This document shows, in pieces, positions 12,859 to 49,405 of a stretch of DNA of 64,000 bases. Where the stretch lies: the NCBI GenBank assembly GCA_034440575.1, contig JAOTOL010001636.1:1150501-1214500 (forward strand), read 5' to 3'. The position numbers were made by a program, and so were the translations under genes. Numbering within the stretch: the first letter of the stretch is position 1; each line of letters opens with the position of its first letter. Source of the DNA: Imbricaverruca yamaguchii. Lineage: Eukaryota; Arthropoda; Thecostraca; Neoverrucidae. The notes under the pieces are model-generated. The model ran no database searches, had not been told where the DNA came from, and worked only from the letters and a program-made list of their open reading frames with translations.

Positions 12859-14000
12859 ATGGCTACTGCTGCTCTGGGTCTGCCGGGTGGCACCTTATCA
12901 GATCGGCCATGACTTCGAGCGGTGGCTACACAGCGTCGAAGTCTACTTGGCCGCACTGGACATTGTGGCTGAGGGGCGGAAGACGGCAGTGCTCCTGCAT
13001 TTGCTGGGTCCTGAATTGCAGGAGGTTTATACCACGCTACCAGCACCTCACGGGGTGCAAGGGAGTATGCTACATGCGTCTCCAAGCTACGGACTTACCT
13101 TGCACCAGATCGTAATGCCATCGCTGTGAGGATGGCGTTCCGGCGCATACGGATGCAAGAGGGGGAATCATTTGAAGGCTTCCTCGCACGGCTGCGGGTG
13201 CGGCAGGGAGGTGTAACTTCCCTGGTGAGCAGCTCACAAACGAGCTCAGGGATCAGGCCATCGCAGGCAGCAGGTCTCGCCTGCAGGAGAAGCTGCTCCA
13301 GCGTGCTGCTGAGAAGGGTGATGGGTTGACCCTACAGGAAGTGGCTGCCCTGGTGCGGGCAACTGAGCAGACGCAAAAGCTGGTACTGGAGATGCAGCAG
13401 GCCAGTGTGGCGGAGTACCAGCCACAACAGCATGTTCAGGCAGTTCAGCCACAGCGAAGGCCGCAACCAGCGCCAGGTAGGGCCCTGACAGGTGACAAGA
13501 AGGCCTGCTTCAAGTGTGGGCAGTACGGACATAGGAAGCGGGACTGCCCGGAGGAGGCAGGGCAGAGAAGGTTCAAGGGTCTGCGGTGTTTCGAGTGTGG
13601 ACGGATTGGACATATGAGTCGCAACTGCCATCAGCAGAGCAAGGTGAAGCTGGTGCAGCAGAGCAGTGGCGAGGAGACCAAAGCTGGCGATTGGCAAGTG
13701 AATGCCATTCTGCCCGAAGGGGCGGAGTATGCCAAGGTCCGGGTCAACGGGCAGCATCTGACCATGCTAGTGGACACTGGGTCTCCAGTAAGCATTGTCA
13801 GCAACTGCACAGCCCTCCCTGCCCTCAAGCTGCGACCCTGTAGGCTGCGACTGACCTCCTTCACAGGCCAGACCATCCGCCTGCGGGGCGAGGGGAGGTG
13901 CTGGTGCAGGCAGGTGGTCAGTCGGTGCGCCTGCGTCTGGTGGTGTCGGACATCGGTCCACACCGCCCTCTGTTGGGACGGGAGTGGCTCAAGGTGCTGA
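12859..14000 (+). pseudogene. gypsy 1 gag with two CCHC knuckles and protease start
   Basis: gag begins around the ATG at 12859 and shifts frame at least twice before 13326. The capsid-like part contains GHDFERWLHSVEVYL and EGESFEGFLARLR. Two zinc knuckles follow, CFKCGQYGHRKRDC (about 13508-13549) and CFECGRIGHMSRNC (about 13586-13627), which would bind the element's RNA. The protease active site LVDTGSPVS lies near 13770. Frame lesions mean no functional polyprotein. Confidence 0.85.
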
Positions 14001-15116
14001 AGAAGAGGTCAGAGCTTGATGCACCTGCGGTTTGCCCAGTGATGCCCGGGCTGACACTGCAACAGGTGATTGAACGACACAAGAGTGTGTTCGGGGAGGA
14101 GTTGGGCAGGATTCCCACCAAGGTGTCACTGAAGCTGAAGCCGGGGGCCCAGCCAGTGTACCGGCGGGCCAGGCCTGTTCCCTTCGCCCTCCAGGATGCC
14201 ATCGAGCGCGAGCTGGACAGATGGGTTAGCCAGGGCATAGCAGAGAAGGTGCAGCCTGGCGACTTCTCTGGCTGGGGCACACCTCTGGTGCCTATCCCCA
14301 AGCAAGATGGAGTGCGACTGTGTGCAGACTACCGGATCACAGTCAACCCTCAGCTGGAGCCATTGAAGTACCCGATGCCCACGCCAGAGGCGCTCTTCGC
14401 CAGCATCAAGGGCAAGAAGTTTGCCAGTTGGACTGTCGGAACGCTTATTTGCAGTGCGAGCTGGACGACAAATCCAAGGACGTGATGACAGTCACCACGC
14501 ACCGAGGTGCGTTCCGTATGAACCGACTGCCCTACGGCATCAGCATCTGTGGGGCGGTGTTTCAGGCCATCATGGACCGTGTGCTGGATGGTCTCCCGGG
14601 GTTGTGAGCTACCTCGACGACATCCTGGTCACGGCATACAGTGACCGTGAGCTACTCCAGCGGTTGGACAGGGTCCTAACGCGACTGGAGGACAACGGAA
14701 TGCGGCTCAAGAAGGAAAAGTGCGAGTTTGACTTGCATGAGGTGGTGTACCTCGGGTGGAGGGTGTCGGCAACAGGATTGCGCCCTCTGGAGGAGAAGAC
14801 CAGCGCCATCAAGCGGGCACCGGAACCGCAGAACGTCCACCAGCTGAAGTCTCTGATCGGCTCCATCAGCTACTACCAGCGGCTGTTGCCAAACCTGGCG
14901 ACGGTCCTGGCTCCGCTGTACGCTCTGCTGAAGAAGGACGTGAAGTGGAAGTGGACCGAAGCCTGCTCAGCGACCGTGACCCGCATAAAGCAGATGCTGG
15001 TAACAGCACCGGTTCTGGTGCGGTACGATCCGGCTCTGCCTCTGCGGCTGGTCACAGACGCTAGCTCAACCGGCCTGGGAGCGGCTCTGGTCCAGGCGAT
15101 GCCGGATGGGATGTAA
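13898..15116 (+). pseudogene. gypsy 1 reverse transcriptase
   Basis: The RT lies in three overlapping frames (13898-14485, 14320-14607, 14421-15116), so it carries at least two frameshifts. Recognisable blocks are GWGTPLVPIPKQDG, LCADYR, the NRLPYGI segment, and SYLDDILV around 14607-14630 with the catalytic YLDD. RNase H begins with LRLVTDASSTGLGAALVQ near 15050. Confidence 0.88.
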
Positions 15117-15172
15117 CGACCAGTACAATACGCTTCGGACCCTGAGCCCCACTGGAGCGCAAGTACGCCCAA

Positions 15173-16490
15173 GTGGAGAAGGAGGCACTGGCCGTGTCCT
15201 TCGGGGTCAAACGGTTCCACCAGTTTGTCTTCGGGCGGCCATTCACCCTGGTGGTGGACAACAGGACTCTGTCACGGATCTTAAGCCCTGACCGGGAGCT
15301 GCCGTGCCTGGCCGCGGCACGTTGCAGCGCTACGCGCTCCAGCTGCCTGCATATCAGTACCGGGTGGAGCGTGCGACGACTCGCATCGCATCGTCCACTA
15401 CGTCGCACCGATGCGATGAGGGTAGTGGACACCCTGTCGCGGCTGCCGGTCTCCAACCCGGCGGACGAGCGGGCGGCGGCAGAAGAGGAGGCGGAGCATG
15501 GCAGTGGCTGCGTGCTTTTCGTCGCGGACGATGGACCAGCTCTGACTGCACGCGACATCGCCACGGCCACGCGGCGGGATCCAGTGCTCGCCCGAGTACT
15601 GGCGGCGGTGCGATCCGGCTGGCCGGCGGTGGTGGACCCCGACCTTGTTCCGTTCAAGACTAGACAAGAGGAACTCTCCACAGACGCCGACTGGGTGCTC
15701 TGGGGCGGTCGGGTCGCGGTGCCGCGCGGGCTTAGGAGTGCCGTGAAGAAGGAGCTTGCACGAAGGGCACTTCGGATCCACGAAAATGAAGCAGCTGTCG
15801 CGTCGGTTCGTCTGGTGGCCGGGGCTGGACGCCGAGCTCGAGGCGCTGGCGCGCGACTGCGACGCCTGCGCCGCCAGGAGGGCAGCGCCCCTCACGCGGC
15901 TCGGCACGCCTGGGAGACCGCCAGCTGGCCATGGCAGCGGATCCATGCCGACTTAATGGGCCCGATGTTGGGCTGTAGCTTCCTCGTCGTCGTGGACAGC
16001 TATTCCAAGTGGCTGGAGGCGGTACCGATGACGACAACGACGGCCGGCCGGACAGTGGCCGTAATGAGGAACATGTTCGCTCGGCTGGGGCTGCCACTGC
16101 AAGTAATAACTGACAACGGCCCTCAGTTCGCCAGCCACGAGTTCGCCATTTTCATGCGAGCCAACGGCATTCGACACATTCGCGTCGCTCCGTACCACGC
16201 CTCATCAAACGGGTTAGCGGAGCGGGCGGTCGGCACATTGAAGAACGCTCTGAGGACGACTGTGGCTGCGGCGGCGGAGTGGACCTCGCGTTGGCCCGCG
16301 CTCTGATGGCCTATAGGGCGACTCCGCATGCGGCCACAGGGCGTACGCCAGCAGAAATGCTGTACGGCCGGGACATCCGCACACGGCTAAACCTGCTGGT
16401 GCTGAGTGCGGACACAGCCCTGCAAGGGGCCGGCCAGCGGCTGCAGGAATCATCAGGTGGCAGGTGGAGAGAATTTCGGGCTAGGAGCAG
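15173..16490 (+). pseudogene. gypsy 1 RNase H end and integrase
   Basis: The frame 15173-16306 carries the end of RNase H (EKEALAVSFGVKRFHQFVFGR) and the integrase core with ITDNGPQFASHEF near 16110. The zinc-binding H2C2 part (HEGHFGSTKM...FVWWPG...CDACAA) lies in another frame at 15756-15870, so a frameshift pair separates them. The copy ends shortly after ALMAYRATPHAATG...TPAEMLYG and lacks a clear 3' LTR. Confidence 0.87.
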
Positions 16491-16749
16491 CCGTGTGGGC
16501 GCGGTGTTACACCATTATTTCCACAACTATCCACCAATATATGCAGACTGCATATGCACCCACAAACCAAACGTGCACATTCAATCACGTGTAGGCTTAT
16601 GGTTAACACTAGTCCATATTGTTCCATACTTATGGACCGGGAAGCAGATATTTGACAAAGAAATATTCAAGTTGTAAAGGGCTGCGCATTTGCAGTGCCT
16701 TTGTTGTGGCCCACTGGTGCAGATTGGTTTTGTACCCTTAATGCACCAG

Positions 16750-22879: not shown

Positions 22880-23867
22880 GTCAGTTTTCCGGCCGGCGCT
22901 CGTGTGCGTGGGTGTTGTGTTGTGTGTCGGTGGTGTCGAGAGGCGTGCCGGTATCTCCGGCCAGCGCTGCTGCGCTGATCGGTCGAAGTGTACGCGAGAG
23001 CCAGCTGCGCCGCGCGCCAATCGTTGCCGTCCGATCCGCTCATGGGTCCGGCGGTCGGCTGTTGTGCGGTACATGCGTGACGGTATAGGGTTTCCATATT
23101 TCTTAGTGGAAACTCCAATCCACTGTTCCACTCCACTCCACTGTAGTGTAGTGGAGTACAAAAATAGCTTTGCACTTCCTGACAAGTGTGGTACATGCAT
23201 GATCCCACTTGATACGCAGAGCATGAGTTGTTGCCACCAGGCTGTTTTGGATGTGATGGCTTCATGTTGGTTTAAAAATTGTGTTGCACCTTTTGACTGG
23301 AGTAAGTGAAATGTGGACTGGATGACTGGAAAACGAGGACCAGTGAGTTGCGTGGTGTGGTTTGGGGTGGCATTTGACTATGATGGTTAATCTGGGTTGG
23401 TCGAGTGTTTCCCAAAGTAGAGGCATGCAAGGGGTAGTTGTTGCTAACCATGTCTACTGCCAATTACAATATTTTTTGGTGAGATGAAGCTTGATTTACA
23501 ATGGCAGCTGCACCTGTTTTCATACTGACCCAGCATTGGTATTTAACTGCTGCTGCTGTAGTCTAAAAATGGCATATAAGTTGCTACTTGGAGATGTACA
23601 TATGTTCTGTGCATGAGCTGGTATGGTCAGTGTCCTGAAATTGATCTTCAAAACCTGAAGCTTTGAAGATCAATGCAGGACACTGATCATGCAGCTTTTC
23701 CATGTAAATTGAAAAGCTGCACTTAATGATGTAAAGACAGTGATATCAAAAAGCTGTCCGTGTGTGCCTCCACTCAATCTTCGGAATTTCATGACTGGGA
23801 TTAAGGTTGGGTAAGTATTTATGTATTTTCCGTGACGTGATTAATTGATTGCTTCGTGCCTTTCCAG
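22880..23867. other. presumed intron; expected third-finger exon not found
   Basis: The ZFR exons for the third finger (the FHCKLCxCxFND region) and the coiled region after it should lie here but I see no trace of them. The first 200 bp are GC-rich. Two hairpins lie at 23627-23687 and 23691-23720. Confidence 0.5.
23627..23720. repeat. two adjacent inverted repeats
   Basis: The first pairs CAGTGTCCTGAAATTGATCT with AGATCAATGCAGGACACTG around a loop containing AAACCTGAAGCTTTG. The second pairs GCAGCTTTT (23691-23699) with AAAAGCTGC (23712-23720). Confidence 0.85.
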
Positions 23868-24942: not shown

Positions 24943-25011
24943 ATGAAATGATGATAAAACAGTCTCGTTCGTATGATATACAGTGCTTACAACAATCATA
25001 ATCTGAACCAT
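24943..25011 (+). ncRNA. C/D-box snoRNA, U30-like, copy 1
   Basis: Box C ATGATGA is at 24948-24954 and box D CTGA at 25003-25006. Between them the 12-nt guide AGTCTCGTTCGT (24961-24972) sits directly before a D'-like ATGA (24973). The guide is perfectly complementary to ACGAACGAGACT of 18S rRNA. The fifth base upstream of D' (24968, T) faces an A, consistent with the 18S adenosine methylated under the direction of vertebrate U30/SNORD30. It lies in an intron between consensus splice sites on the same strand. Confidence 0.8.
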
Positions 25012-25073
25012 CATCTATGCTATTTCATGCGGTGTCTGGCGTTCTTCGTGACAAATAATGTGTGCCTTTTCAG

Positions 25074-25137
25074 GAAGATGTCCCTTCCCGGGACGTATTC
25101 ACAGCATCTATGGCTTCCGGAACTAAATCTGGAATCG
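25074..25137 (+). ncRNA. host-gene exon between the U30-like snoRNAs
   Basis: Acceptor GTGTGCCTTTTCAG, donor ATCG|GTAAGTG; 64 nt. More than one frame is open but none encodes a recognisable protein. The short length and the one-snoRNA-per-intron pattern resemble the non-coding exons of snoRNA host genes such as UHG/SNHG1. Confidence 0.6.
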
Positions 25138-25189
25138 GTAAGTGATTCGAATTTAGCATGCGTTGCATAACTTTGGCAAATTAGTCATT

Positions 25190-25258
25190 GTGAAATGATG
25201 ATACACTAGTCTCGTTCGTATGATATACGGTGCTTACAAATATCGTAGCCTGAGCTGT
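25190..25258 (+). ncRNA. C/D-box snoRNA, U30-like, copy 2
   Basis: Box C ATGATGA at 25195-25201, the same 12-nt guide AGTCTCGTTCGT at 25208-25219, D'-like ATGA at 25220 and box D CTGA at 25250-25253. The guide is identical to copy 1 while surrounding bases differ, which is the pattern expected of selection on the guide. The intron around it, down to the acceptor, is a tandem duplicate of the preceding intron. Confidence 0.8.
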
Positions 25259-25318
25259 CATGTGTGCTATCTTGTGCGGTTTCTTGCGTTGTCAGTGATG
25301 AATGGTGTGCCTTTTCAG

Positions 25319-25379
25319 GGAAGTTCACTGTCCGGTGGTCGTTTTTGCGGCATCATACTTCGGGCGCTCGGGGACTGCG
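25319..25379 (+). ncRNA. host-gene exon after U30-like copy 2
   Basis: Acceptor GTGTGCCTTTTCAG, donor CTGCG|GTAAGC; 61 nt. Its acceptor and upstream intron are near-identical to those of the exon at 25074, but the exon bodies differ, so only the snoRNA-bearing intron was strongly conserved. Confidence 0.58.
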
Positions 25380-26185
25380 GTAAGCTATAGCACCATAGCA
25401 CTTAATGTGTTTCTGGCCAATAAAAAATTTCTATTATTTCAGCGTCTGAGCATTGCCGGTTCCCTTGTTCTCTCACTTTTTATAATGCTAAGTAGACTTC
25501 AAACAGCGTAGGTTTTCGGTGTGCTCTACCCATTTCGAAAATTAATTCAGATGTTTTACATTTTCAAAATGTGCAAGAGTAATGTATAAAAATATAAACT
25601 TTTTGAACAGGCAAATAAGGGTCATAGTCGTTTTTTCCTGCCTTTTCTGATACAATATTTGTTTGTTTGTTTTACAATCTCCCACAAAATGGACTCCCAC
25701 AGCCAATAACAGTTGTGTTCCTCCATACCCCTCACCCCTCCCTCGTCATACTAGTGTCGCCTTTTGGAGGGATAAAGCATTTTTGTAGCGGTTTCGGGCC
25801 CCGGGCGCTTTCTGATCCGAACACCACTCCCGTTTTCATGAAATGCTTTGTTTGGAGATTGGGGTCATAAAGCAACCAACACCTGAGAAGTGGGTGTGAG
25901 GACCTTACCAGAAGGAAGACAGTGCGGGTTGAGGTCGCCGCTGCTTGCACATTTCCTCATCAGAAACAATTTGTTTATATTTACCACGGTTGATTTTTAC
26001 CCCTTCTCAAATTTCTAACCTGACGACACCAGTCTGACCCAACTCACGAAGTGTACATCATAAAACAATAATGCAGGAGCCAAACTTTGATAATCATGTC
26101 TTCCCGCTCTGTGGCCAGTGGCCGCTGAACCCAGCCCGGTTGTTGATGCTCTGTGATGACGCTCGTGACCTATGGCTTGTTTCAG

Positions 26186-26242
26186 ATCGCTGCCGGTTCG
26201 CCGACTCCCGGCGCAATGTGTGCTGCTGGCCGGAACAGACTG
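26186..26242 (+). ncRNA. possible host-gene exon
   Basis: Acceptor GGCTTGTTTCAG, donor AGACTG|GTGAGT; 57 nt with no protein match. I could not find a convincing snoRNA in the preceding intron (25380-26185). Confidence 0.4.
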
Positions 26243-26749
26243 GTGAGTGTTCGGCGCGGCCGGCCGGCGCTGCGCAGACTAGCCCCGATGTGCTATATAC
26301 TTTGGCTCGTCGGCGAAAGTTCTGCAAGAGCGATGCTGGCCAGCGGCGCTGTGGCCGCTGTATGCGTGTAGCGGTCACCACGAGCCCGTCCGCATCTGTG
26401 GACGTAAGGCTGAGCCTACAGATGCCTTGTTCGAATCCATCAGTGCGGGTTGGAAGGATTTAGCTCCTAGAAATGCTGCATATTGGGTAGACGGTTACCG
26501 GTTTCGGACTGGTGATTAATAGTTTTTTTTAGGGAGGAATCTACCCGATTCGCGTAAGCCCTGTGTAATGTATTTGCTGCGATTCGAATACCGCTCCCGA
26601 GCGCTGTATGGCCGTCTTAGTCGATGCGCCCTGAACTCCAGTGACCAACCAACCAATCGAACACCACCCTTTCGATTTCCTCAGTATCGCTGGCACGCCA
26701 CAGGATTTGTTTCTTGGTTGGACTTTGCTCATTGGCATATTGTTTTCAG

Positions 26750-26808
26750 GCTCGATGATGTGGCTTAGTGAGTTTTGGCCAATCTGCAGGAACCTGCATT
26801 GCACCATG
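26750..26808 (+). ncRNA. possible host-gene exon
   Basis: Acceptor CATATTGTTTTCAG, donor CACCATG|GTGAGT; 59 nt. In-frame stops occur in two of three frames, supporting a non-coding exon. The following intron contains diverged copies of the array-1 segment ending in CCGCTATCCTGG (near 26940-27030 and 27370-27455). Confidence 0.42.
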
Positions 26809-27873
26809 GTGAGTACGACTTTGCCGTCCGTGTTTTACCAAAACTTGAATTCGCATGTTTAGTGAGCGTTTCCTGACGAGGACTCTGAAGTCACATTGGC
26901 GCGTCCCGACAAATTGCTCTCATCGCAACCTTTGCCCCGGCCTGATCTCATCAGTGGTGCAGGCCGGCTTTCCCTTGTTGCGAACATCAAATTCGGCCAA
27001 ACCGCTATCCTGGCGGCCGCCCCTTTTGTGGCCGTTGGGACGAAGTTTGACCACATCGTTATTTCTAGAGCTGAAATGCCGTGCTAGACGGTGGCTATTG
27101 TGCATTCTAATGTGTTATTCGCTAATGCTTCCAAGCTACGGTCATTGCTCCATGCTCGATTCCGCTACTGGTTGGTCTAATCACGCAGAACACGAATGTT
27201 CCCTTCAGGGTCGAGTAGCACGAACCAATGAGGCGGCGTGTTGAGGCTGGCGTGCACGGCTGTGGCCAGCTCGATTGTCTTGCAATACCTTACCTCCGAT
27301 AGTCGAAGAGACATTGTGACACCAGCTTACTTGGCTATTGCCGTGTATTCTATTTTTCGCGACCTTTGATCAGATTTGGCGTCACTAGTGACAGAAGTCG
27401 GCTTTCCCTTGTCGCGAACACGAGGCAAGTCCGTGCTACTATCCCGGTATTCGTCAGCCTTACGGTTGTCGAGGAAAAGTTTGTCCAATGTTGCTACATG
27501 ACCTCGCTGTGTCTGTAAAGTGGTTCGAGTGCGCCTCGCTCAGTCATTTCTCAGGGCACAGGTCCGGTCTAGCTTCAAGCTGCAGTTGGGCTGGTTCAAG
27601 TCCCTGTGATTTTATGGTCAGACCAGTATGTATCCTCTACGATGTGGTCGCCAGGACCAAGTTACCTTTGCGCCTCGCGAGACCAGCAAAAACTTGTGCT
27701 TATGACTGTTGTTAATTGCAGATTGGTCTCCGTGGACGGATGGATTCCGATCTCCTGGGCTATGTTGCGTTGGTCAGTCAGCTGGTCTGTCGCTGCTGTT
27801 GAAATTCAAACGAGCGTTCTGCAAAATGGTGAGTGCAGATCGCGCCGATCTACCCACGTTTCGTATGTTTCTC

Positions 27874-27944
27874 GTTTCTGATGACTCACCCAGCTCGCTT
27901 CAAGCCACGGCGATGCAGAAAGTTTCCCTGTTAGCCTGAACCTG
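27874..27944 (+). ncRNA. C/D-box snoRNA, 28S-guide family, copy 1
   Basis: Box C CTGATGA (27878-27884) and box D CTGA (27936-27939). ACCCAGCTCGC at 27888-27898 can pair over 11 positions (one G-U) with GUGAGCUGGGU of 28S rRNA. It is intronic, 50 bp after a GTGAGT donor. This guide region resembles that of U29 as I remember it, which shares a host with U30 in vertebrate UHG. Confidence 0.68.
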
Positions 27945-28799
27945 ATTATATATACATGGTCAGTCATAGATTGGAATCATGTACTTACGACTGTTGTTTC
28001 TTGCAGATAGGTCTATGCGCCCTGAAGCCAAATATCAGATTGGTCGGTGTTGCTTCATGGATTTCGATTGCCTGGGCTAAGTACCATTCACCTGGTCTTG
28101 AAGCAGGCGTCAATCATACAGTGAGTAACGTGAAAGGCAAGTGTTTGGTGATGTCACGAATCTTTCGTTTTGTGCTCCGTGCCTGTCCGCATGACTATCG
28201 ATGGTGTTGCGCAGACTAGCTTTGATTGACTGGTATCAGTGCTCCGTCGGCGTTCCCATTCTGCGGACAAAAACTGGGGCAAGCCGCTATCCTGGTATGT
28301 GCCTGCACTGCGAATGCCAGGACGAAGTTTGTTTATATCTGTTCAGTTGCCGACGATGTTTTTTTCTGCGTGTTCTGTACTGATGGACATGAGAAGACAA
28401 AGAACGGTTTTCTGTTTAGTAGTGCTCGGGGTAAGACTTTAGCGCCTCAGACCATTCAGTCTTCAATTCTGCTTCTGAAGTTTTCGCTCACGCCTTGTAC
28501 CTATCAAGCTGGAAGTAGTCTTGACACGTATCGGCGAATGCAGAATGTTTCGACCACCTTTATTGGCGAATCAGTTAAGCTTGCCAATCTGTGTCCGAAA
28601 TCTCATAAATATTAGGTCCAGGTCTGTGCAGTTGCCTTGTCCGAAAGCTCAATTAGGTGACCCATTGCCACCCATGCTTACAGGCGGTCGAAGTTCGCTG
28701 GAGGACTTGGCCGTCGCTGCTGCTGAAATCCCACAACGGGCGTTCTGCACGATGGTGAGTGCAGATCGCGCCGATCTACCCACGTTTCGTATGTTTCTC

Positions 28800-28870
28800 G
28801 TTTCTGATGACTCACCCAGCTCGCTTCAAGCCACGGCGATGCAGAAAGTTTCCCTGTTAGCCTGAACCTA
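28800..28870 (+). ncRNA. C/D-box snoRNA, 28S-guide family, copy 2
   Basis: TGATGA at 28805-28810, box D CTGA at 28862-28865. The body between the boxes is identical to copy 1. Confidence 0.68.
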
Positions 28871-29717
28871 ATTATATATACATGGTCAGTCATAGATTGG
28901 AATCATGTACTTACGACTGTTGTTTCTTGCAGATAGGTCTATGCGCCCTGAAGCCAAATATCAGATTGGTCAACATCGCTTGATGGATTTCGATTGCCTG
29001 GGCTAAGTACCATTCACCTGGTCTTGAAGCAGGCGCCAATCATACAGTGAGTAACGTGAAAGGCCAGTGTTTGGTGATGTCACGAATCTTTCGTTTTGTG
29101 CTCCGTGCCTGTCCGCATGACTATCAATGGTGTTGCGCAGACTAGCTTTGATTGACTGGTATCTGTGCTCCGTCGGCGTTCCCATTCTGCGGACAAAAAC
29201 TGGGGCCAGCCGCTATTCAGGTATGAGCCTGCACTGCGAATGCCAGGACGAAGTTTGTTTATATCTGTTCAGTTGCCGACGATAATTTTTTTTTTCTGCG
29301 TGTTGTACACTGCGGGACATGAGAAGAAAGAAGTTTTCTGTTTAGTAGTGCTCGGGGTAAGACTGCGCCTCAGACCATCCAGTCTTCAATTCTGCTTCTG
29401 AAGTTTCGCTCACGCCTTGTACCTATCAAGCTGGAAGTGTCTTGACACATATCGGCGATGCAGAATGTTTCGACCACTTTATTGGCGAATGAGTTAAGTT
29501 GCCAATCTGTGTCCGAAATCTCGGTATTAGGTGCAGGTCTGTGCAGTTGCCTTGTCCGAAAGCTCAATTAGGTGACCCATTGCCACCCATGCTTACAGGC
29601 GGTCGAAGTTCGCTGGAGGAGCCGTGGCCGTCGCTGCTGCTGAAATGCCCACAACGGGCGTTCTGCACGATGGTGAGTGCAGATCGCACGGATCCACCCA
29701 CGTTTCGTATGTTTCTC

Positions 29718-29788
29718 GTTTCTGATGACTCACCCAGCTCGCTTCAAGCCACGGCGATGCAGAAAGTTTCCCTGTTAGCCTGAACCTG
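29718..29788 (+). ncRNA. C/D-box snoRNA, 28S-guide family, copy 3
   Basis: TGATGA at 29723-29728, box D CTGA at 29780-29783, with the same guide and spacing as copies 1 and 2. Confidence 0.68.
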
Positions 29789-30658
29789 ATTATATATACA
29801 TGGTCAGCCATATAGTGCAATCATGTACTTACGACTGTTGTTTCTTACAGATAGGTCTATGCGCCCTGAAGCCAAATATCAGATTGGTCGGTGTTGCTTC
29901 ATGGATTCCGATTGCCTGTGCTACGTACCATTCGTCAGTCATCTGGTCTTAAAGCAGGCGCCAAGCATACAGTGAGTAACATGAAAGGCCAGTGTTTAGT
30001 GATGTCTCGAATCTCGTTTTGTGCTCCGTGCTTGTCCGCATGACTATCAAGTGTTGCGCAGACTAGCTCCGATTGACTGGTATCAATGGTCCGTCGGCGT
30101 TCCCATTCTGCGGACAAAAACTGGGGCAAGCCGCTATCCTGGTATGTGCTTTTACTGCGGGTACCAGGACGAAGTTTGTCTACATATGCTCAGTTCCTGT
30201 TGAAGGATTTGTGGGTGTTCTAGTGTATTATGTGACATAAGGACAAAGTACGGTTTGCGGTGTATGCAAGGGTGCTTCAAGGGAAATATTTCAAAAGCCA
30301 TGCAACATTTTTTTTTTCTTAATTCAGTCTGGTTTTGCTAATGCCTTGCACATCGCTCCCAAAATGCCTTGGTTGGCTAACTCAGGTTCACACAGATGGG
30401 CGCAATATTGACTGGCGCCCCTAAACAGCTTGGCACATCTGTATATCAGACATTTCATAAATATTCGGTGCCGTCCAGTCTACAGTCAGCTTGTATGAAA
30501 GCTCAAATGGTCAACCAATTGCCACGTGTGCTTACAGGTACTCGACATGGGTGGGGGAGTACATTGATCCGTTGCTGCTGCTGAAATACGAATAACGAGC
30601 GTTCTGCACGATGGTGAGTGCAGATCGCGCCGATCCACCCACGTTTCGGTTGTTTCTC

Positions 30659-30729
30659 GTTTCTGATGACTCACCCAGCTCGCTTCAAGCCACGGCGATG
30701 CAGAAAGTTTCCCTGTTAGCCTGAACCTA
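30659..30729 (+). ncRNA. C/D-box snoRNA, 28S-guide family, copy 4
   Basis: TGATGA at 30664-30669, box D CTGA at 30721-30724. The snoRNA is unchanged although the unit around it has diverged more than the first three. Confidence 0.68.
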
Positions 30730-31387
30730 ATTATATATACACGTTCAGTCGTAGAGCGAAATCGTGTACTTACGACTGTTCCTACTTGCAGATTGATCGA
30801 CGCTGCTGGTTGGATTTCGATTGCTTGGGCTATCTTGCATTCGTTAATCATCTGGTCTCGAAGCAGGCGCCGAGCATACAGTGAGTAACGCGGAAGGCCA
30901 ATGTTTAGTGATGTCCCGAGTCTTTCGTTTTGTGTTCTGTACTTGTCGGCATGACTATCAATAGTGTTGCGCAGACTAGCTCCGATTGACTGGTATCAGT
31001 GGTCCGTCAGCGTTCCCATTCTGCGGACAAAAGCTGGGGCAAACCGCTATCCTGGAATGAGCTAACACTGCGAATGTCAGGACGAAGTTTGTCTACATCT
31101 CGTTTCCTGTTGACTGAGGAAATATGGACGTTTTCTCTGGGTGTTCTCAGGCACTTCGCGACACGAGGACAAAATATGGTTTGCGGTTTATGCAGGTGCG
31201 CTCGAGGGCAAAATTTTGAAACGTCGCATGCGTTTTTTTTTATAGTTCACTGAGGTTTTACTTATGCCTGGCACATCAGTCTGAAAGTGCCTTAGTTGAC
31301 TAACCCAGATTGGCACAATCTGTATATCCGACATCTCATCAGTAGTTAGTGCCGTACAGTGTACAGTCAGCTTGTCTGAAAATTATA

Positions 31388-31434
31388 ATGGTGTCTCGGC
31401 GGTCTATGCGTCGTAAAGCCAATAACCAACCAAG
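31388..31434 (+). mobile_element. tail fragment of SINE family 2
   Basis: CTATGCGTCGTAAAGCCAAT followed by AACCAACCAAG matches the 3' tail of the SINE at 37327-37487. The tRNA-like head is absent. Confidence 0.55.
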
Positions 31435-31978
31435 AAAACTCATTGTCAACTAATTCCCATGTATCCTTGCAGGTACTCAACATGGGCGGGGACAACATTG
31501 ATCCGTTGTTGCTTCTGAAAATTCAACGAGCGTTCTCCAGAATGGTACGTGCAAATCGTGCCGATACGTACGTAATACGTGCCGGGTGCGGCTACACTTC
31601 GACATACGTCCAAAACTGCTGAATCATAGATTCCAGGTTTTGTATTCGTCGCAGCCCAGCTCCGTGATATCTCAATGTTGATATTCTTGGCGTTTTTGCT
31701 GCGGAAATTAACAGGGCAAGCCTATCCTGTCTCATCAGTGTCCGCTGATGGGGCCTGGAAATGTTTGCGCACAATGTTTTAGATGATTACCTATTTGAAT
31801 AGCGAAGTCTGGCCTTGTATGCTCCATGTCGATCAGCTGAAGCTTTTGGTCGTCTTGCTAGTCTTACTCTTAGGATGTGCTTTGATCATACTAGAGCAAT
31901 TTTTCTCTTTTTTTGTTTGTTGATAATTTCCATCATGAGCTATGGTTGACGTAATTTTATTTCCTTAGGTTTTGCGGT

Positions 31979-32037
31979 TCTTATGTTGGCGAGGAACTGC
32001 CATCCCCGAACCCCTTTCGGAACGTCAGATCTGCGTG
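31979..32037 (+). ncRNA. recurrent host-gene exon of array 2
   Basis: 59 nt between TTATTTCCTTAG and GCGTG|GTAAGTTGACG. The equivalent exons are at 33565-33633, 35161-35229 and, more diverged, 37570-37639. Splice sites are kept in all four while the exon body changes, and no shared protein frame is conserved, which fits a non-coding host transcript. Confidence 0.55.
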
Positions 32038-32096
32038 GTAAGTTGACGCAAGAGATGCTATTGAGTCACCACGGATGAAATATGCGTCGCTCTTTC

Positions 32097-32170
32097 ATTG
32101 AATGATGATACACCCAGCTCGCTTCCAGCTTCGGCGATGCAGATAATTTTTTCCCAAGTAACTGATCAAT
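32097..32170 (+). ncRNA. C/D-box snoRNA, 28S-guide family, copy 5
   Basis: A perfect box C ATGATGA (32102-32108) and box D CTGA (32162-32165). TTGA before C and TCAA after D can form the terminal stem. The guide ACCCAGCTCGC is at 32112-32122. Confidence 0.75.
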
Positions 32171-33692
32171 TTAGTTACATGCAGTTCGTTGACATGTTTT
32201 TTGCGTAGTATTTGAGACTATTTCTTTTCACAGATTGAAGAGCATTTGGAGGTATGAGGACTAAATCAAGCCAGCGAAATGGTAGGAACTTACTAATTAA
32301 ATACTTGTTCCTTTTGTGTAATCTCCTGTGTATTGCGTTTGTATCATCGGTGATACACCGGTAGCCCAAGCAATTTTTATTTTGGACTTTCAGCACGGGA
32401 ACCCCAGAGTCCCTATGCCTTGCCCTTGCATTGAACTTGCCCGTCGTGTCCAGGACCTCGCTTGTGCGCGCTCTACGGCGGTCGGTGGGGCATTGGTATG
32501 AACGTTTTTCTGGCTGCCTGCAAATTATCAATGGAATGGATGGTCGATGCCATGCTAATGTTTCTCTTTCGCCCACTGCATACCAGCTTTGCTAGTAGTC
32601 TTTCATTCCAATCTTCTGTTCCAGTAGTTCATGCTATTCCGTCAGTATGATTTGGTAGCCGAACTGTAATATCTGCCTGAATATGATGCACATTTCCACT
32701 GTCTAGGTCCGTCTGAAACGAGGCCGATGTGTTAACACAGTATTCGTACTGTCTGACAAGGTCCATTGGTCTCTGGTACCGTATCACTGTCGGCCCATGC
32801 TGACGGTATCTCGCCCTTAGGTCCCCTGTGGCGTGCTACGTGCAAGCAAAACAACCGGTTTCGCCACAATTGGTGAGAAGCCTGTTGTACTTTTCTATTG
32901 GTGTGTTGTGTGCCTGTTGATGCCTATGCGATCCGATATTTGGTCCGTTTTTGCCTGCTGAATCTGTGCAAAAGAATGGTCACAAGCATTAGGGCTGGCT
33001 TTTTCTTTCTTGTTTTAACTCCTCTTCAGGTGTTTTCCCAGATTTGCGGCACCGCCCGTTAGTACATTTCATAAATCGATGTTGGATTAAAGCGCGACAA
33101 CTTTACTCTTCGCTGCATTGTATGTCTTCTTCTATCGGTAATGCGTATGTCATGATAGTATTCCATGCATTTTCTGCCCCTGTGGATACACTTCGAAGGA
33201 CTTGGACGCTTCCAAAACTGCTCAGTCATATAATCAGTTCTTTGTTGGCCGCAGCCCAGCTCCGTGATATCTCAATGTTGATATTCTTGGCGTTTTTGCT
33301 GCGGAAATGAACAGGGCAAGCCTATCCTGTCTCATCAGTGGCTGCTGATGGGGCCTGGAAATGTTTGCGCACAATGATTTAGATGATTACCTATTTGAAT
33401 AGCGAAGTCTGGCCTCGTATGCTCCATGTCGATCAGCTGAGGCTTTTGGTCGTCTTGCTAGTCTTACTCTCAGGATGTGCTTTGATCATACTAGAGCAAT
33501 TTTTTTTTTTGTTTGTTGATAATTTCCATCATGAGCTATGGTTGACGCGATTTTATTCCCTTAGGTTTTGCGGTTCTTATGTTGGCGAGGAACTGCCATC
33601 CCCGAACCCCTTTCGGGACGTCAGATCTCCGTGGTAAGTTGACGCAAGAGATGCTATTGAGTCACCACGGATGAAATACGCGTCGCTCTTTC

Positions 33693-33765
33693 ATTGAATG
33701 ATGATACACCCAGCTCGCTTCCAGCTTCGGCGATGCAGATAATTTTTCCCAAGTAACTGATCAAT
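33693..33765 (+). ncRNA. C/D-box snoRNA, 28S-guide family, copy 6
   Basis: Box C 33698-33704, box D 33757-33760. The internal sequence differs from copy 5 only by one T in a T run. Confidence 0.75.
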
Positions 33766-35288
33766 TGAGTTACATTCAGTTCGTTGACGTGTTTTTTGCG
33801 TAGTATTTGAGACTATTTCTTTTCACAGATTGAAGAGCATTTGGAGGTATGAGGACTAAATCAAGCCAGCGAAATGGTATGAACTTACTAATTAGATAAT
33901 TGTTCCTTTAGTGTAATCTCCGGTGTATTGCGTTTGTATCATCGGTGATACACCGGTAGCCCAAGCAATTTTTATTTTGGACTTGCAGCGCGGGAACCCC
34001 CGAGTCCCTATGCCTTGCCCTTGCATTGAACTTGCCCGTCGTGTCCAGGACCTCGCTTGTGCGCGCTCTACGGCGGTCGGTGGGGCATCGGGATGAACGT
34101 TTTGCTGGCTGCCTGCAAATTCTCAATGGAATGGATGGGTGATGCCATGCTAATGTTTCTCTTTCGCCCACTGCATACCACCTTTGCTAGTAGTCTTTCA
34201 ATCCAATCTTCTGTTCCAGTAGTTCATGCTATTCCGTCAGTATGATTTGGTAGCCGAACTGTAATATCTGCCTGAATATGATGCACATTTCCGCTGTCTA
34301 GGTCCGTCTGAAACGAGGCCGATGTGTTAACACAGTATTCGTACTGTCTGACGAGGTCCATTGGTCTCTGGTACCGTATCACTGTCGGCCCATGCTGACG
34401 GTATCTCGTCCTTAGGTCGCCTGTGGCGTGCTACGTGCAAGCAAAACAACCGGTTTCGCCACAATTGGTGAGAAGCCCGTTGTACTTTTCTATTGGTGTG
34501 TTGTGCCTGTTGATGCCTATGCGATCCGATATTTGGTCCGTTTTTGCCTGCTGAATCTGTGCAAAAGAATGGTCACAAGCATTAGGGCTGGCTTTTTCTT
34601 TCTTGTTTTAACTCCTCTTCAGGTGTTTTCCCAGATTTGAGGCACCGCCTGTTAGTACATTTCATAAATCGATGTTGGATTAAAGCGCGACAACTTTACT
34701 CTTCACTGCATTGTATGTCCTCTTCTATCGGTAATGCGTATGTCATGATAGTATTCCATGCATTTTCTGCCCCTGTGGATACACTTCGAAAGACTTGGAC
34801 GCTTCCAAAACTGCTCAGTCATATAATTAGAGTTCTTTGTTGGTCGCAGCCCAGCTCCGTGATATCTCAATGTTGATATTCTTGGCGTTTTTGCTGCGGA
34901 AATTAACAGGGCAAGCCTATCCTGTCTCATCAGTGGCTGCTGATGGGGCCTGGAAATGTTTGCGCACAATGATTTAGATGATTACCTATTTGAATAGCGA
35001 AGTCTGGCCTCGTATGCTCCATGTCGATCAGCTGAGGCTTTTGGTCGTCTTGCTAGTCTTACTCTGATGTGCTTTGATCATACTAGAGCAATTTTTTTCT
35101 TTTTTTGTTTGTTGATAATTTCCATCATGAGACATGGTTGACGTGATATTATTTCCTTAGGTTTTGCGGTTCTTATGTAGGCGAGGAACTGCCTTCCCCG
35201 AACCCCTTTCGGAACGTCAGATCTGCGTGGTAAGTTGACACAAGAGATGCTATTGAGTCACCACGGATGAGATATGCGTCGTTCTTTC

Positions 35289-35362
35289 ACTGAATGATGA
35301 TACACCCAGCTCGCTTCCAGCTTCGGCGATGCAGATAATTTTTTCCCAAGTAACTGATCAAT
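35289..35362 (+). ncRNA. C/D-box snoRNA, 28S-guide family, copy 7
   Basis: Box C 35294-35300, box D 35354-35357, with the guide unchanged. Confidence 0.75.
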
Positions 35363-36175
35363 TGAGTTACATTCAGTTCGTTGACATGTTATTTTGCGTA
35401 GTATTTGAGACTACTTCTTTTCACAGATTGAAGAGCATTTGGAGGTATGAGGACTAAATCAAGCCAGCGAAATGGTAGGAACTTATTAATTAGATAATTG
35501 TTCCTTTTGTGTAATCTCCTGTGTATTGCGTTTGTATCATCGGTGATACACCGGTAGCCCAAGCAATTTTTATTTTGGACTTTCAGCGCGGGAACCCCCG
35601 AGTCCCTATGCCTTGTCCTTGCATTGAACTTGCCCGTCGTGTCCAGGACATAGCTTGTGTGTTGTGTGCATGTTGATGCCTATGCGATCCGATATTTGGT
35701 TCGTTTTTGCCCTGCTGAATCGGTGCAAAAGAATGGTCACAAGCATTAGGGCTGACTTTTTCTTGTTTTAACTCTTCTTCAGGTGTTTTCCCAGATTTTC
35801 GGCACCGCATGTTAGTGCATTTCATAAATCAATGTTGGATTAAAGCGTGACAACTTTACTGTTCGCTATATCGTATGTCCTCTTCTATCGGTAATGCGTA
35901 TGTCATGATACTATTCCATGCATTTTCCGCCCTTATGGATACACTTCGAAAGACTTGGACGCTTCCAAAACTGCTCAATCATATAATCTCAGCTCTGTTG
36001 GCCGCAGCCCAGCTCCGTGATATCTCAATGTTGATATTTTCGGCGTTTTTGCTGCGGAAATTAGCAGCGCAAGCCTATCCTGTCTCATCAGTGTCCGCTG
36101 ATGGGGCCTGGAAATGTTTGCGAACACTGTTGGTCTCGGTGGCAGCCTCTTCGAAGGGATCAGTAATAATTAGAC

Positions 36176-36434
36176 ATGGCGGCTTTAGTGGACCGGCATC
36201 AATATGGCCTGTCTTCGCAGCGACATTTGATGGATATCAAGAGTGAATTGTTCGTGAAGCTCACGGATTCGGCATTAAGGGATATGGAAGATAATGTGCG
36301 AACGAGGGGACTACAATCCTCCTTGACAAGACTGACTGGATAAAGTCTCCTTCGACAATGGGGCACAGTTCCTGTTCAGCATTTCTGCCAACCCGGACCA
36401 GGGCAGCTTCGAGTGTCCAGCAGCACTGTTCAAA
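36176..36434 (+). pseudogene. ELL: ELL-like first coding exon, frameshifted
   Basis: ATG at 36176 opens a frame beginning MAALVDRHQYGLSSQ and containing ELFVKLTDSALRDMED. This matches the amino terminus of the ELL family of RNA polymerase II elongation factors (MAAL...YGLS...VKLTDSALR). That frame ends at TAA 36341. The expected continuation appears one frame over from 36345: VSFDNGAQFLFSISANPDQG and SFECPAALFK, matching the ELL segment FSFYLSN...PQGSFDC. The exon then meets a donor AAA|GTAAGC at 36435. ELL raises elongation rate and is part of super elongation complexes. The internal frameshift points to a decayed copy or an assembly error. No further ELL exon was found downstream. Confidence 0.68.
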
Positions 36435-36439
36435 GTAAG

Positions 36440-37217
36440 CCCCCCCCCCCCATTCGTACGTGTTGTATGTAAGACATTGGCCAAGTTTAGGTGCGGGCGG
36501 CAGCGCGTCGGGCTGCTAAGCTGGGCGGCGGGAGGCGTGCCACATCCGGATACAGCTGTGTGCGGCGGCCACTGACCGACCAACGCGGAGATAGTGGCGC
36601 AACGCTGCCGCCCGCCAGCCGCGCTCAGCTGGCGCATGGCCGTGTTGGCCCGTGTTTGCGGACGGCAGCTGAGCCGGTCTTGCGGTCGTGGTGTCCTGCC
36701 CGTCCCCTCGGCCATTGTGTCCGCAGCCCGTCCCCTCGCCATTGTGCCCGCTGCCCGTCCCCTCTATCAGTCATTGTGTCCGCTGCCCGTTCCCTCTTGC
36801 GGCCGCGGCCCATCCACTATCAGCCATTGTGTCCGCGGCCCGTCACATCGGTCAGCCGTGCAGGTGTCGCCGCCGATACACGGTCAACATGACCCGGGTC
36901 AGTGGTGACCTCTGCTACAGTGTCAGGTGGACTCGGCACCTGCAGACGAGCCAATGGTCTGACAGGTGTAATACTTCACCGACAGTGGTGTGTGGCGGCG
37001 GCTGTACGATGGGTCCACTTGTGAAGTACGATCCCAACTACGTGGCGGCCTTTTTTCGCACGGGTGATGTAGTTCAATGTGGGAGGGGAGCCCAGCGTGA
37101 ATTCGCACAAATGTCTGCCCGGTTTTTGGTTGGTTGAGCGACTAGCAGTGTATTTACCTTCAATTGTGGAGGGCAAGGCAATGGGCGCCAAACGACCCTG
37201 TAGTCGGCGCGCCCTTG
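36440..37217. repeat. GC-rich block with a 26-31 bp minisatellite
   Basis: After a C run (36440-36450) follows GC-rich, CpG-rich sequence. CATTGTGTCCGCNGCCCGTC recurs about four times between 36712 and 36850. Open frames on both strands here are a by-product of composition. Confidence 0.7.
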
Positions 37218-37326
37218 TCTATGTCTACCTATTGGAATAGCGAAGTCTGGCCTCTTATGCCTGATCAGCTGGGACTTTGTGGTCGTTTTGCTCTGACGTT
37301 TTACTCGTGTGCTGAAGTGTGCTTTG

Positions 37327-37487
37327 ACGGGACGAGTAGTCTAGGGGTAAGTTGCCCATCTCACAATCGAAAGATTGTGGACTCTAGCTTCACCTGTTGC
37401 TACTCTGCGACCCTAACCAATCGGCGTGAGAGATTGACAACGCTACATGACTTAACGGTCGGCGCGTTGTAAAACCAATAACCACCA
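37327..37487 (+). mobile_element. tRNA-derived SINE (family 2)
   Basis: The head reads GAGTAGTCTAGGGGTAAG (box A-like) and a box B-like GTGGACTCTAGCTTC. The tail is CGTTGTAAAACCAATAACC. Imperfect 11-bp direct repeats (AGTGTGCTTTG / AGTGTGCCTTG) at 37316-37326 and 37488-37498 form the target duplication. It lies inside the fourth unit of array 2. Confidence 0.82.
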
Positions 37488-37704
37488 AGTGTGCCTTGGC
37501 CATCCCAAATGACATGGATTTTGCTATTTTCCATATTGAGACATGTCTGATGTGATTTTGTTTCTGTAGGATTTCCAGCTCTGACTTCGCCAAGGACTGC
37601 AATATCTAGATCTCGCTTGGAATGTGTCAGATCTGCGCGGTAAGTTGACGCGAGAAATGCTACTCGTCACTACGGGTGTGGTGTGCGTCGTTCTCTTTCA
37701 TGTC

Positions 37705-37778
37705 ATTCAATGATGAGACACCCAGCTCGCTTCCAGCTTCGGCTATGCAGATAATTCTCTCCCTAGTAACTGACCGAT
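37705..37778 (+). ncRNA. C/D-box snoRNA, 28S-guide family, copy 8
   Basis: Box C ATGATGA 37710-37716, box D CTGA 37770-37773, guide ACCCAGCTCGC unchanged. The surrounding intron and the exon before it are much more diverged from the other units, so conservation of boxes and guide here is good evidence of selection. Confidence 0.78.
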
Positions 37779-38624
37779 TTAATTGTATTGAGTTCGCCCA
37801 GAATGTTTCTTGCGTAGTAATTAAGACGGCTTCTGTTCAGACTGAAGAGCAGTTGGAAGTGAGGACGACTTCACATTTGTGAAGTGGTAAGAATGGCCGC
37901 TAAATGTCTTTGTAGCCGATGCGCCCTAGTGATCAATTCTAATTTGGAATATGGCAGTATATTACTGCTGGATTGCTTTTGCTTTATCAATTTCCCTTTG
38001 GTGTTTCTCATGCTCGTGTCGTCCAGTCGCTGGTGCTCATGTGCTTATGTCGTTCACAGTTTCACGTTTATTCTTATGGTATATTTTTGTCGCTGTATTT
38101 TCGGTAGGTTGAAAAGAATATTGCGAGGTGAAAGCAAAATACATTAAAGTATACCATGTATCTGTCGTATCAGTCATGAAATATATACTACACAAGATGG
38201 CTACCTGTTTGCTTGCCTGCATGGAGCTGGTGGATTACAGCAGCAAGTACTAACTACGGTGTTAAAATGAGTTACAAGTTCCATCGCAATAGGCAACCAT
38301 GCTTTCGTATGAAGCATCTCGTAGTAGGTGACAGCACGTTCTGTTGTCTGACCACACGTACTGCCGCTGCCCGGCCGCCTCGCGCGCGCGCTCAGCCTAT
38401 GCGGCTGTCTTGAGGGCTACGTTTTACTGCCCGGTGCAAGCCTGCTTGTCGGCCTGGGCACAGGAATAATTTTACTATGAAGGGGCCATCGTCTGCAAGG
38501 AAAAAGAGCAGCCGCAGTAGCGTGACAAAGTGGAGTGTCCCTCCTCCCCCTTTCTGGGTGGATGGCCTCCCAGGAATCGTGGCCGTCAAAATTCGCGTGG
38601 GAACTCGAATTGAATAGAACAGGG

Positions 38625-38830
38625 ACGAACGGTCCATGGGTAAGTTGCTCGTCTCACAATCGATATGTTGTGGGTTCGAGTCTCGCATGTCGTTCTCTTC
38701 GCCCGTGACCGATCGGCGTGAGAAATTGGTGACGCTATGTGACGTTCACCATCTCTTAGGGGTTTCTTGGTGGTGACAGAAATTGGTGACTACGTGAGGA
38801 ACGGTCGACGTGTTGTAAAACCAGTAGCTC
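38625..38830 (+). mobile_element. tRNA-derived SINE (family 2), second copy
   Basis: The same head as the 37327 copy (CCATGGGTAAGTTGCTCGTC, box B GGGTTCGAGTCTCGC) and tail (CGTGTTGTAAAACCAGTA). An internal duplication (GAAATTGGTGAC twice) makes it longer. Confidence 0.82.
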
Positions 38831-47106: not shown

Positions 47107-47248
47107 ACATGACGCGGTCAGGTTACTTGCGTTGAATGCGTGCACTTTGGATAGCTCGCAGCACACCCGGCAGTGGTGATAGAAAGTGTGAATAGTGCAA
47201 ATAGTGGTTTTGGAGCCGTGGTCGCGCCCATTCCACCACTGACTCGGC

Positions 47249-47926
47249 ATGCCAGGCGGATCAGAGGAGTCTCCAGGTGACAACGCCAGGGAGCAGAAGC
47301 CATCTGAGGTGGAGCTTCTCACTCGTATGCTACAACAGCAGATGGAGCACGCTGCGGCATCGGCACGGCGGGAGGAGCACCTGGCAGCTTTAATGGAGCG
47401 CGTATGGGCTGCTGGCCCGCCAACGGTGCCGCCCGGCTCAGCCCCCGACGGCCCAAGGACTGGCACCGCCGCTGATGCCCGACCTCGCCCGAGGCCGTCG
47501 GCCGCTGCCACCCCGGCACCCCGACTGACATCATCTGCCTTGCTACGGGAGTTTGAGGCATGGAGAAGTAAGTTCAGCGGATATTGTTTGCTCACAGGAA
47601 TCGACCAACGGACACACGCAGAGCAGAGAGCCGCTCTGCTGTCACTCCTGGACGATGACTGGGCTCGTGTAGTTCGGTTTGGACTCCCAATCTCGGACGT
47701 AGTTGGCATGGGTGACATTATCTCAGCCATGCACATGCATCTCAGGCGGCAGCGTAACGTCGTAATCTACAGGTGGGATTCCCATGTGCGTGTTCAGCAG
47801 CCTGGGGAGTCAGTGGACGACTTCATCTGCACGCTGAAAGAAATCGCGTCGTGCTGCGATTTCTACACACACTGCGTGGACGATCGGTTTCGTGACCATC
47901 TAGTCGTCGGTACTATCGATGACTAA
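47249..47926 (+). CDS. gypsy 2 gag, capsid part
   Basis: 225 codons. A proline/alanine-rich amino-terminal region (about 1-95) is followed by a capsid-like helical domain with FEAWRSKFSGYCLLTGID, QRAALLSLLDDDWARVV and ESVDDFICTLKEIASCCDFY. It would coat the element's RNA. The frame closes with a TAA-type interruption at 47924 before continuing at 47939. Confidence 0.82.
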   Translation: MPGGSEESPGDNAREQKPSEVELLTRMLQQQMEHAAASARREEHLAALMERVWAAGPPTVPPGSAPDGPRTGTAADARPRPRPSAAATPAPRLTSSALLREFEAWRSKFSGYCLLTGIDQRTHAEQRAALLSLLDDDWARVVRFGLPISDVVGMGDIISAMHMHLRRQRNVVIYRWDSHVRVQQPGESVDDFICTLKEIASCCDFYTHCVDDRFRDHLVVGTIDD

Positions 47927-47938
47927 GCTCGGCGGCGC

Positions 47939-49375: not shown

Positions 49376-49405
49376 CCGACGACGCCGTGCCGCACGCTGT
49401 TCACT

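Follow-up and report, generated by a model that had tools for sequence, protein, structure and literature searches.

Between positions 24943 and 37778 of a 64,000-nucleotide (nt) stretch of DNA from Imbricaverruca yamaguchii (contig JAOTOL010001636.1, positions 1,150,501 to 1,214,500; the whole stretch is called the window below), we describe what is very probably a spliced host gene for small nucleolar RNAs (snoRNAs). It appears to be of the UHG/Uhg type and probably non-coding, and guides for methylation and for pseudouridylation of one spot in the peptidyl-transferase region of ribosomal RNA (rRNA) seem to have been amplified in it together. The locus contains ten box C/D RNAs on the forward strand, two of U30 type and eight of U29/snR71 type, and in every one of the eight repeat units that hold a U29-type RNA an adjoining intron carries a box H/ACA RNA, so that the two classes stand at 1:1 (8:8). 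An earlier note on this DNA had described ten C/D RNAs, one per intron on one strand, and all ten were located. It had seen the locus as one of C/D RNAs only, and had overlooked the eight H/ACA partners as well as an older H/ACA copy.

The box C/D RNAs

The C/D elements are taken to be of the U30 and U29 types; Rfam backs snR71 only, and weakly. The ten RNAs, given from C box to D box for the U30-like copies, are as follows.

24948..25006, forward strand: U30-like C/D snoRNA, copy a, with a guide to 18S ACGAACGAGACU
25195..25253, forward strand: U30-like C/D snoRNA, copy b, guide as in copy a
27878..27939, forward strand: U29-A1 C/D snoRNA
28804..28865, forward strand: U29-A2 C/D snoRNA
29722..29783, forward strand: U29-A3 C/D snoRNA
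30663..30724, forward strand: U29-A4 C/D snoRNA
32102..32165, forward strand: U29-B1 C/D snoRNA, weak Rfam snR71 match
33698..33760, forward strand: U29-B2 C/D snoRNA, weak Rfam snR71 match
35294..35357, forward strand: U29-B3 C/D snoRNA, weak Rfam snR71 match
37710..37773, forward strand: U29-B4 C/D snoRNA, most diverged copy, weak Rfam snR71 match

The U29-A copies are spaced 918-941 nt apart; the first three U29-B copies are separated by about 1596 nt, and the fourth lies 2416 nt further on. 'Eight near-identical copies', as the locus had been described, is better put as four and four: the A copies are identical (62 nt), three of the B copies are alike but for one T, and B4 is 92-94% identical. 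Between the series, identity falls to 74-76% with an identical guide core (A1 and A4 were compared, all four A copies being the same). Allowing up to two mismatches, the window has eight copies of the 15-nt U29 guide core on the forward strand, all within the locus, and none on the reverse strand; the 16-nt U30 guide core occurs twice on the forward and not at all on the reverse strand.

Both strands of the window were scanned for a C box and a D box with a terminal stem of at least 3 pairs and complementarity to rRNA. The scan returns six matches on the forward strand, all in the locus (2 U30, 4 U29-B), and two on the reverse strand, both outside it. The D box CUGA is present in all ten C/D RNAs, and the U30-like copies have AUGA as D' box. 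The C box RUGAUGA and a terminal stem of 3-5 base pairs (bp) are each found in six of the ten.

The box H/ACA partners

The H/ACA RNAs and the diverged elements related to them are as follows.

26268..26330, forward strand: pre1, diverged relic like the A-type H/ACA 5' hairpin, right guide element changed
26921..27058, forward strand: pre2, older H/ACA copy, H box ACATCA, ACA, 3' hairpin akin to the A type
27356..27500, forward strand: pre3, diverged second pre2-like H/ACA candidate, uncertain, repeat family D20
28207..28340, forward strand: H/ACA-A1, H box ACAAAA, AUA replacing ACA
29133..29266, forward strand: H/ACA-A2, AUA, 3' hairpin changed, 5' pocket intact
30054..30187, forward strand: H/ACA-A3, ACAAAA, ACA
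30967..31100, forward strand: H/ACA-A4, ACAAAA, ACA
31649..31776, forward strand: H/ACA-B1, H box AAATTA, ACA, weak Rfam ceN36-1 match
33249..33376, forward strand: H/ACA-B2, AAATGA, ACA
34844..34971, forward strand: H/ACA-B3, AAATTA, ACA, weak Rfam ceN36-1 match
36002..36129, forward strand: H/ACA-B4, AAATTA, ACA

The H box ANANNA is present in all eight A and B copies, and ACA in six of them. The AUA common to A1 and A2, with the additional 3'-hairpin changes in A2, may mark decaying copies or relaxed constraint. The pre1 relic begins like an A-type H/ACA RNA (GCGCAGACTAGC) and then differs in its right guide element; it may be a diverged or a re-aimed copy.

A scan of both strands for two consecutive hairpins with an energy sum of at most -34 gives 27 candidates in the 64 kilobases (kb). 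Ten are in the locus, nine on the forward strand (pre2, A1, A3, A4, B1-B4 and a GC-rich one at 36819) and one on the reverse strand; outside it are 11 on the forward and 6 on the reverse strand. The scan thus recovers 7 of the 8 A and B copies plus pre2. When entire copies were folded, A1, A2 and A4 came out with mixed global structures, and the hairpins were therefore folded separately. A MAFFT/RNAalifold treatment of the A and B copies together misaligned the right-hand strands, and the 13 pairs that it marked as changed on both sides were not used.

Predicted targets in ribosomal RNA

The rRNA used for target prediction comes from three public contigs with eukaryotic ribosomal DNA (rDNA), covering positions 774-1831 of the small-subunit (SSU) model and positions 1-1889 and 2922-3401 of the large-subunit (LSU) model. 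One contig (L002), which repeats parts of another (L003), was excluded from the counts in the C/D scan and the pocket tests.

The U30-like guide forms 12 uninterrupted Watson-Crick pairs with 18S ACGAACGAGACU in both SSU sequences, a match that 1 of 60 shuffles equals anywhere. The U29 guide next to the D' box forms 11 pairs, one of them G-U, with 28S GUGAGCUGGGU. In U29-A, the D-side guide can pair as well, with 28S CUAAUAGGGAA directly upstream of the D' target (11 bp, one G-U). This pairing ends 1 nt from the D box, and none of 5000 shuffles equals it within that 31-nt stretch.

The H/ACA RNAs carry a 5' pocket that fits 28S GGGAACG-U-G-AGCUGG. The two pocket elements are CUAGCU / CGUUCCC in the A series and CCCAGCU / CGUUUUU in the B series, and the right element begins 16 nt (A) or 14 nt (B) before the H box. 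The target U is the best of 747 uridines for both pockets, scoring 12.4 for A and 13.6 for B (the next uridine scores 8.2 in either case). When the pockets are shuffled, 2 of 1000 reach the score at any U and 0 of 1000 at the target U, for A and B each. The target U lies two nucleotides before the predicted U29 target A; the 28S stretch that contains both is GGGAACGUGAGCUGGGU, and the two predicted marks fall on 28S GGGAACGUGAGCUGGG. By our mapping to the yeast sequence, we take this stretch to be yeast 2944-2946 and the H/ACA target U to be the pseudouridine Psi2944 (snR37). By the same mapping, the place of the U29 target is consistent with snR71 (Am2946, a methylated A). A yeast table pairs Am2946 with snR71 and Psi2944 with snR37, puts both in the peptidyl-transferase centre, and lists Psi2944 as less than 85% modified (PMC8307265).

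The older copy pre2 has a 5' pocket that fits another 28S site, GUGAGGGAAAG-UU-GCAAAG, and 0 of 500 shuffled pockets are as good. The pre3 pocket has no convincing target in the rRNA tested; neither the 3' pocket common to pre2 and the A series nor the B 3' pocket has a target there, with LSU 1890-2921 and SSU below 774 uncovered.

The proposed host gene

Each C/D RNA lies in a proposed intron of its own. Two short exons can be delimited near the U30-like copies.

25074..25137, forward strand: short exon between the two U30 introns, acceptor at 25073, gtaagt donor
25319..25379, forward strand: short exon, borders read from the sequence, acceptor under the scoring cut-off

With a weight table for donors, ten donor sites score above 5.5 between 24.0 and 38.3 kb, and eight of these precede the C boxes of the eight U29 copies by 49-70 nt (the remaining two are at 26243 and 26809). 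In the H/ACA-A introns, the donors (GTGAGT in all four copies, A1-A4) fall below 5.5 and were read from the sequence. From the end of the D box to the AG of the proposed 3' splice site, the distances in the ten C/D introns are 67, 65, 67, 67, 67, 67, 68, 68, 69 and 67 nt. The optimum described for intronic C/D snoRNAs of vertebrates is about 70 nt, a distance that the DmSnR60 genes of Drosophila also show (PMC1821038). The consensus splice borders claimed at the outset hold for eight of the ten acceptors, which pass the acceptor score, whereas those of U30b and U29-B4 fail it and were picked out by reading the sequence. Further AGs that resemble acceptors are common at that score (8.3 per kb), so the choice of acceptors leans on the agreement between copies.

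Coding potential was examined in 16 proposed exons between 25.1 and 32.5 kb, ahead of the later B exons and with some borders uncertain. When these are joined, the longest open reading frame beginning with ATG has 77 amino acids (aa), the mean for shuffled sequences is 73.7, and 41% of 500 shuffles have a frame as long. The exon between U29-A and H/ACA-A measures 114, 114, 121 and 89 nt in its four copies and carries frame-breaking changes; one frame is open in the A1 copy. Of the stop-to-stop frames of at least 120 aa in the locus, 10 were compared with Pfam, and none has a match. As neither the tested exons nor the tested frames show a coding signal, the host gene is probably non-coding, in agreement with the initial description of short exons that have no recognisable product.

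Further short exons and introns in which no snoRNA was recognised appear to lie at 32283-33140 in B1 and at 33878-34735 in B2, and are cut in B3.

Points against the assignment

Several results weigh against reading the locus as an array of paired guides. For the C/D RNAs, no Rfam family is reached at the gathering score: the snR71 family matches the four U29-B copies only, at 25.6-31.6 bits (gathering 60), and the U29-A and U30-like copies have no match even at permissive E-values. The four U29-A copies are missed by the C/D scan, with a contiguous terminal stem of 2 bp and CUGAUGA as C box, and the U29 D' boxes are degenerate (UCAA/UCCA rather than CUGA). The 11-bp U29 duplex taken alone is not significant, since 24/60 and 17/60 shuffles match rRNA equally well somewhere. 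The D side of U29-A matches 18S as well as it does 28S, ending 4 nt from the D box, and in U29-B the D-side guide does not pair significantly, being equalled by 939 and 362 of 2000 shuffles. The target rRNA itself is incomplete and taken from eukaryotes other than the host.

For the H/ACA RNAs, A2 is not recovered by the two-hairpin scan, and the three best two-hairpin scores of the window fall outside the locus, so energy alone cannot single out the H/ACA RNAs described here. The ends of the pockets were fixed post hoc, after the folds had been seen, and 2 of the 16 pairs of the B pocket draw on lower-stem letters; when these two pairs are left out, the same weights give 12.2. A pocket search with fixed offsets puts the target site first for one of the two A variants (12.4) and ranks an 18S site first for the other A variant and for B.

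Copy history and alternative explanations

The repeat structure supports a gain of copies by unequal exchange in two series, A and B, of four units each, as the suggestion of tandem duplication would have it. The units B1-B3 are young, apart from a deletion in B3, which lacks about 435 nt present in B1 and B2. Unit B4 is interrupted by about 1.1 kb of DNA, GC-rich in part (36130-37215), which stands between H/ACA-B4 and the rest of the unit and is absent from the other B units.

What is less evident is whether the copies have been kept for dosage or have simply accumulated, the two possibilities raised in the earlier note, and here sequence by itself is not decisive. It is quite possible, at somewhat less than an even chance, that the array grew by runaway unequal exchange: one or two units would be functional and the others neutral, redundant copies, some of them decaying, and the conservation would come from youth and gene conversion. 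The U29 introns of A1 and A2 are 99.4% identical and those of B1 and B2 97.9%, as expected from such a history. Within B1-B3, 178 of 1529 sub-windows are as conserved as U29-B and 60 of 1473 as conserved as H/ACA-B, so many other stretches match the snoRNAs, which are not outstanding there. The loss of ACA in H/ACA-A1 and A2, and the escape of A2, with its changed 3' hairpin, from the two-hairpin scan, also speak for this history and count against selection for dosage.

Other comparisons are harder to reconcile with neutral copies. In the A units, 351 of 926 columns vary (38%, gaps counted, four copies), yet U29-A with 4-nt flanks has 0 variable columns of 70 in the same four copies; in H/ACA-A, 6 of 63 columns vary in the 5' hairpin and 20 of 73 in the 3' hairpin. 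Across B1-B4, U29 varies at 10 of 72 columns (14%), while the flanking parts of the intron have 15 variable columns of 53 and 21 of 63, and the neighbouring intron and exon parts generally vary at 28-36%. The A and B H/ACA RNAs are only 42-48% identical in a forced global alignment, and the pockets are nonetheless kept. Guides and pockets persist unchanged between series that have otherwise much diverged, and the 1:1 count holds in all eight units. The guides kept between diverged A and B, together with the invariance of U29-A, favour selection on the guides, most clearly on U29-A, and to this extent the suggestion of selection finds some backing.

Descent from the vertebrate UHG/SNHG1 gene, with H/ACA introns gained later, seems rather unlikely. 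U29-type and U30-type guides do share one host here, as they do in UHG, and the tested exons lack a coding signal; this much of the UHG/SNHG1 arrangement proposed in the earlier note is borne out. However, a search of the locus with the partial rRNA used recognised no other C/D guide, and UHG is described as carrying C/D RNAs only (PMC7277114), whereas eight H/ACA partners are present here.

Repetitive intronic DNA or a mobile sequence with snoRNA-like motifs that arose by chance is very improbable: although nothing matches Rfam at gathering and there are retroelements elsewhere in the window, the units hold proposed exons and introns in a single orientation, the guide cores fit rRNA in the right geometry, and the spacing to the splice sites is constant.

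Proposed mechanism

In the reading that we prefer, that of a host gene with paired guides, RNA polymerase II would transcribe the host, and the introns would be spliced out, debranched and trimmed to snoRNAs. Two introns would release U30-type C/D RNAs for 18S, and each of the eight units would yield a C/D particle and an H/ACA particle aimed at neighbouring 28S nucleotides. The U29-type RNA would guide 2'-O-methylation of the A (yeast Am2946), and the 5' pocket of the H/ACA RNA would guide pseudouridylation of the U located two nucleotides upstream (yeast Psi2944). The U29 duplex and the H/ACA pocket overlap on 28S, so the two particles could not bind together and would have to act sequentially. 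Two separate tandem series would have enlarged the array, with the ratio of C/D to H/ACA RNAs held at 1:1.

A balanced supply of both guides is a plausible outcome of such an arrangement. We tentatively go one step further, on a proposal whose chances we put just short of even: the locus may act as a cassette for two enzymes, with methylation and pseudouridylation guides at 1:1 in eight intron pairs, kept for a high and balanced supply of competing guides, and U29-A may now be two-armed, its D' and D sides together pairing over about 22 nt of the 28S target.

Guide dosage is an open question, namely whether the supply of guides limits rRNA sites that are partly modified. If the array is what it seems, dosage could be tested directly on a natural eightfold paired set for the Psi2944 site and the site beside it. 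Such a set would also allow testing the order in which C/D and H/ACA particles act on a common target sequence, and the co-evolution of two guide classes in one host gene.

Other features of the window

Retroelement pieces are recognised by Pfam at 5685-9059 and 4852-5511 on the reverse strand and at 13176-16677 and 47243-52281 on the forward strand. They include a frame like that of a long interspersed element, with endonuclease and reverse transcriptase, a second reverse transcriptase piece, a stretch matching zinc knuckle, RNase H and integrase, and another with a reverse transcriptase match. A protein search with the long interspersed element gives 307 proteins; among the 120 listed, one carries an organism name, Lasius niger, at 33% identity. 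Two stretches at 37329-37490 and 38620-38830 are alike by eye and resemble a short interspersed repeat derived from transfer RNA (tRNA); ARAGORN finds no tRNA in them, or anywhere in the window. A long inverted repeat at 23614-23700 has weak matches to microRNA precursors on both strands, far under gathering. Rfam matches of the microRNA-like, ceN110, U82P and rox1 kinds were discarded, their scores being far under gathering.

Comparison with known systems

Vertebrate UHG/SNHG1 is likewise described as non-coding, with intronic snoRNAs that include U29 and U30; it hosts eight snoRNAs, U22 and U25-U31, all of them C/D (PMC7277114). Here, in contrast, there are eight U29-type RNAs with H/ACA partners, and the U29 and U30 types alone were recognised. 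The Drosophila Uhg genes are closer in general plan, with no recognisable open reading frame and up to 16 introns that hold one snoRNA each; the portion of that paper available describes no 1:1 alternation of C/D and H/ACA RNAs for one rRNA spot (PMC4430873). Drosophila snoRNA clusters are reported in Uhg1-8 (PMC13228274).

Tandem guide copies have precedents too, and to call them unusual for an animal, as was first done for this locus, is too strong. Drosophila mfl (Nop60B) has four isoforms of one C/D snoRNA, one per intron (PMC1821038). As in our locus, these isoforms (DmSnR60 a-d) keep a distance of about 70 nt to the 3' splice site, and an H/ACA RNA (snoH1) is found in the same gene; unlike our locus, the host is described as protein-coding, with snoH1 aimed at 18S and the C/D isoforms at 28S. 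Large C/D arrays in tandem are found in eutherians, and SNORD115/116 and SNORD113/114 resemble the present locus in their locally repeated C/D RNAs (PMC11028025). They are described as orphan RNAs in imprinted eutherian loci, whereas here the RNAs are predicted rRNA guides with H/ACA partners. In chicken, snoRNA paralogs are reported to come almost always from intragenic duplication (PMC2653536).

As regards targets, the nearest counterpart is the yeast pair snR71 and snR37. Our predicted targets agree with theirs under the mapping assumed above. The two guides are separate RNAs in yeast, whereas here they appear co-amplified in one host gene. The B copies show a weak resemblance to Rfam snR71, the guide assigned to Am2946 in yeast (PMC8307265). 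Among open-licence papers, searched by title and the start of the abstract, we found no paired array of this kind, which is not proof of absence. Tandem guide copies in one host are thus already known, and what sets this locus apart is the apparent paired amplification of C/D and H/ACA guides for one rRNA spot.

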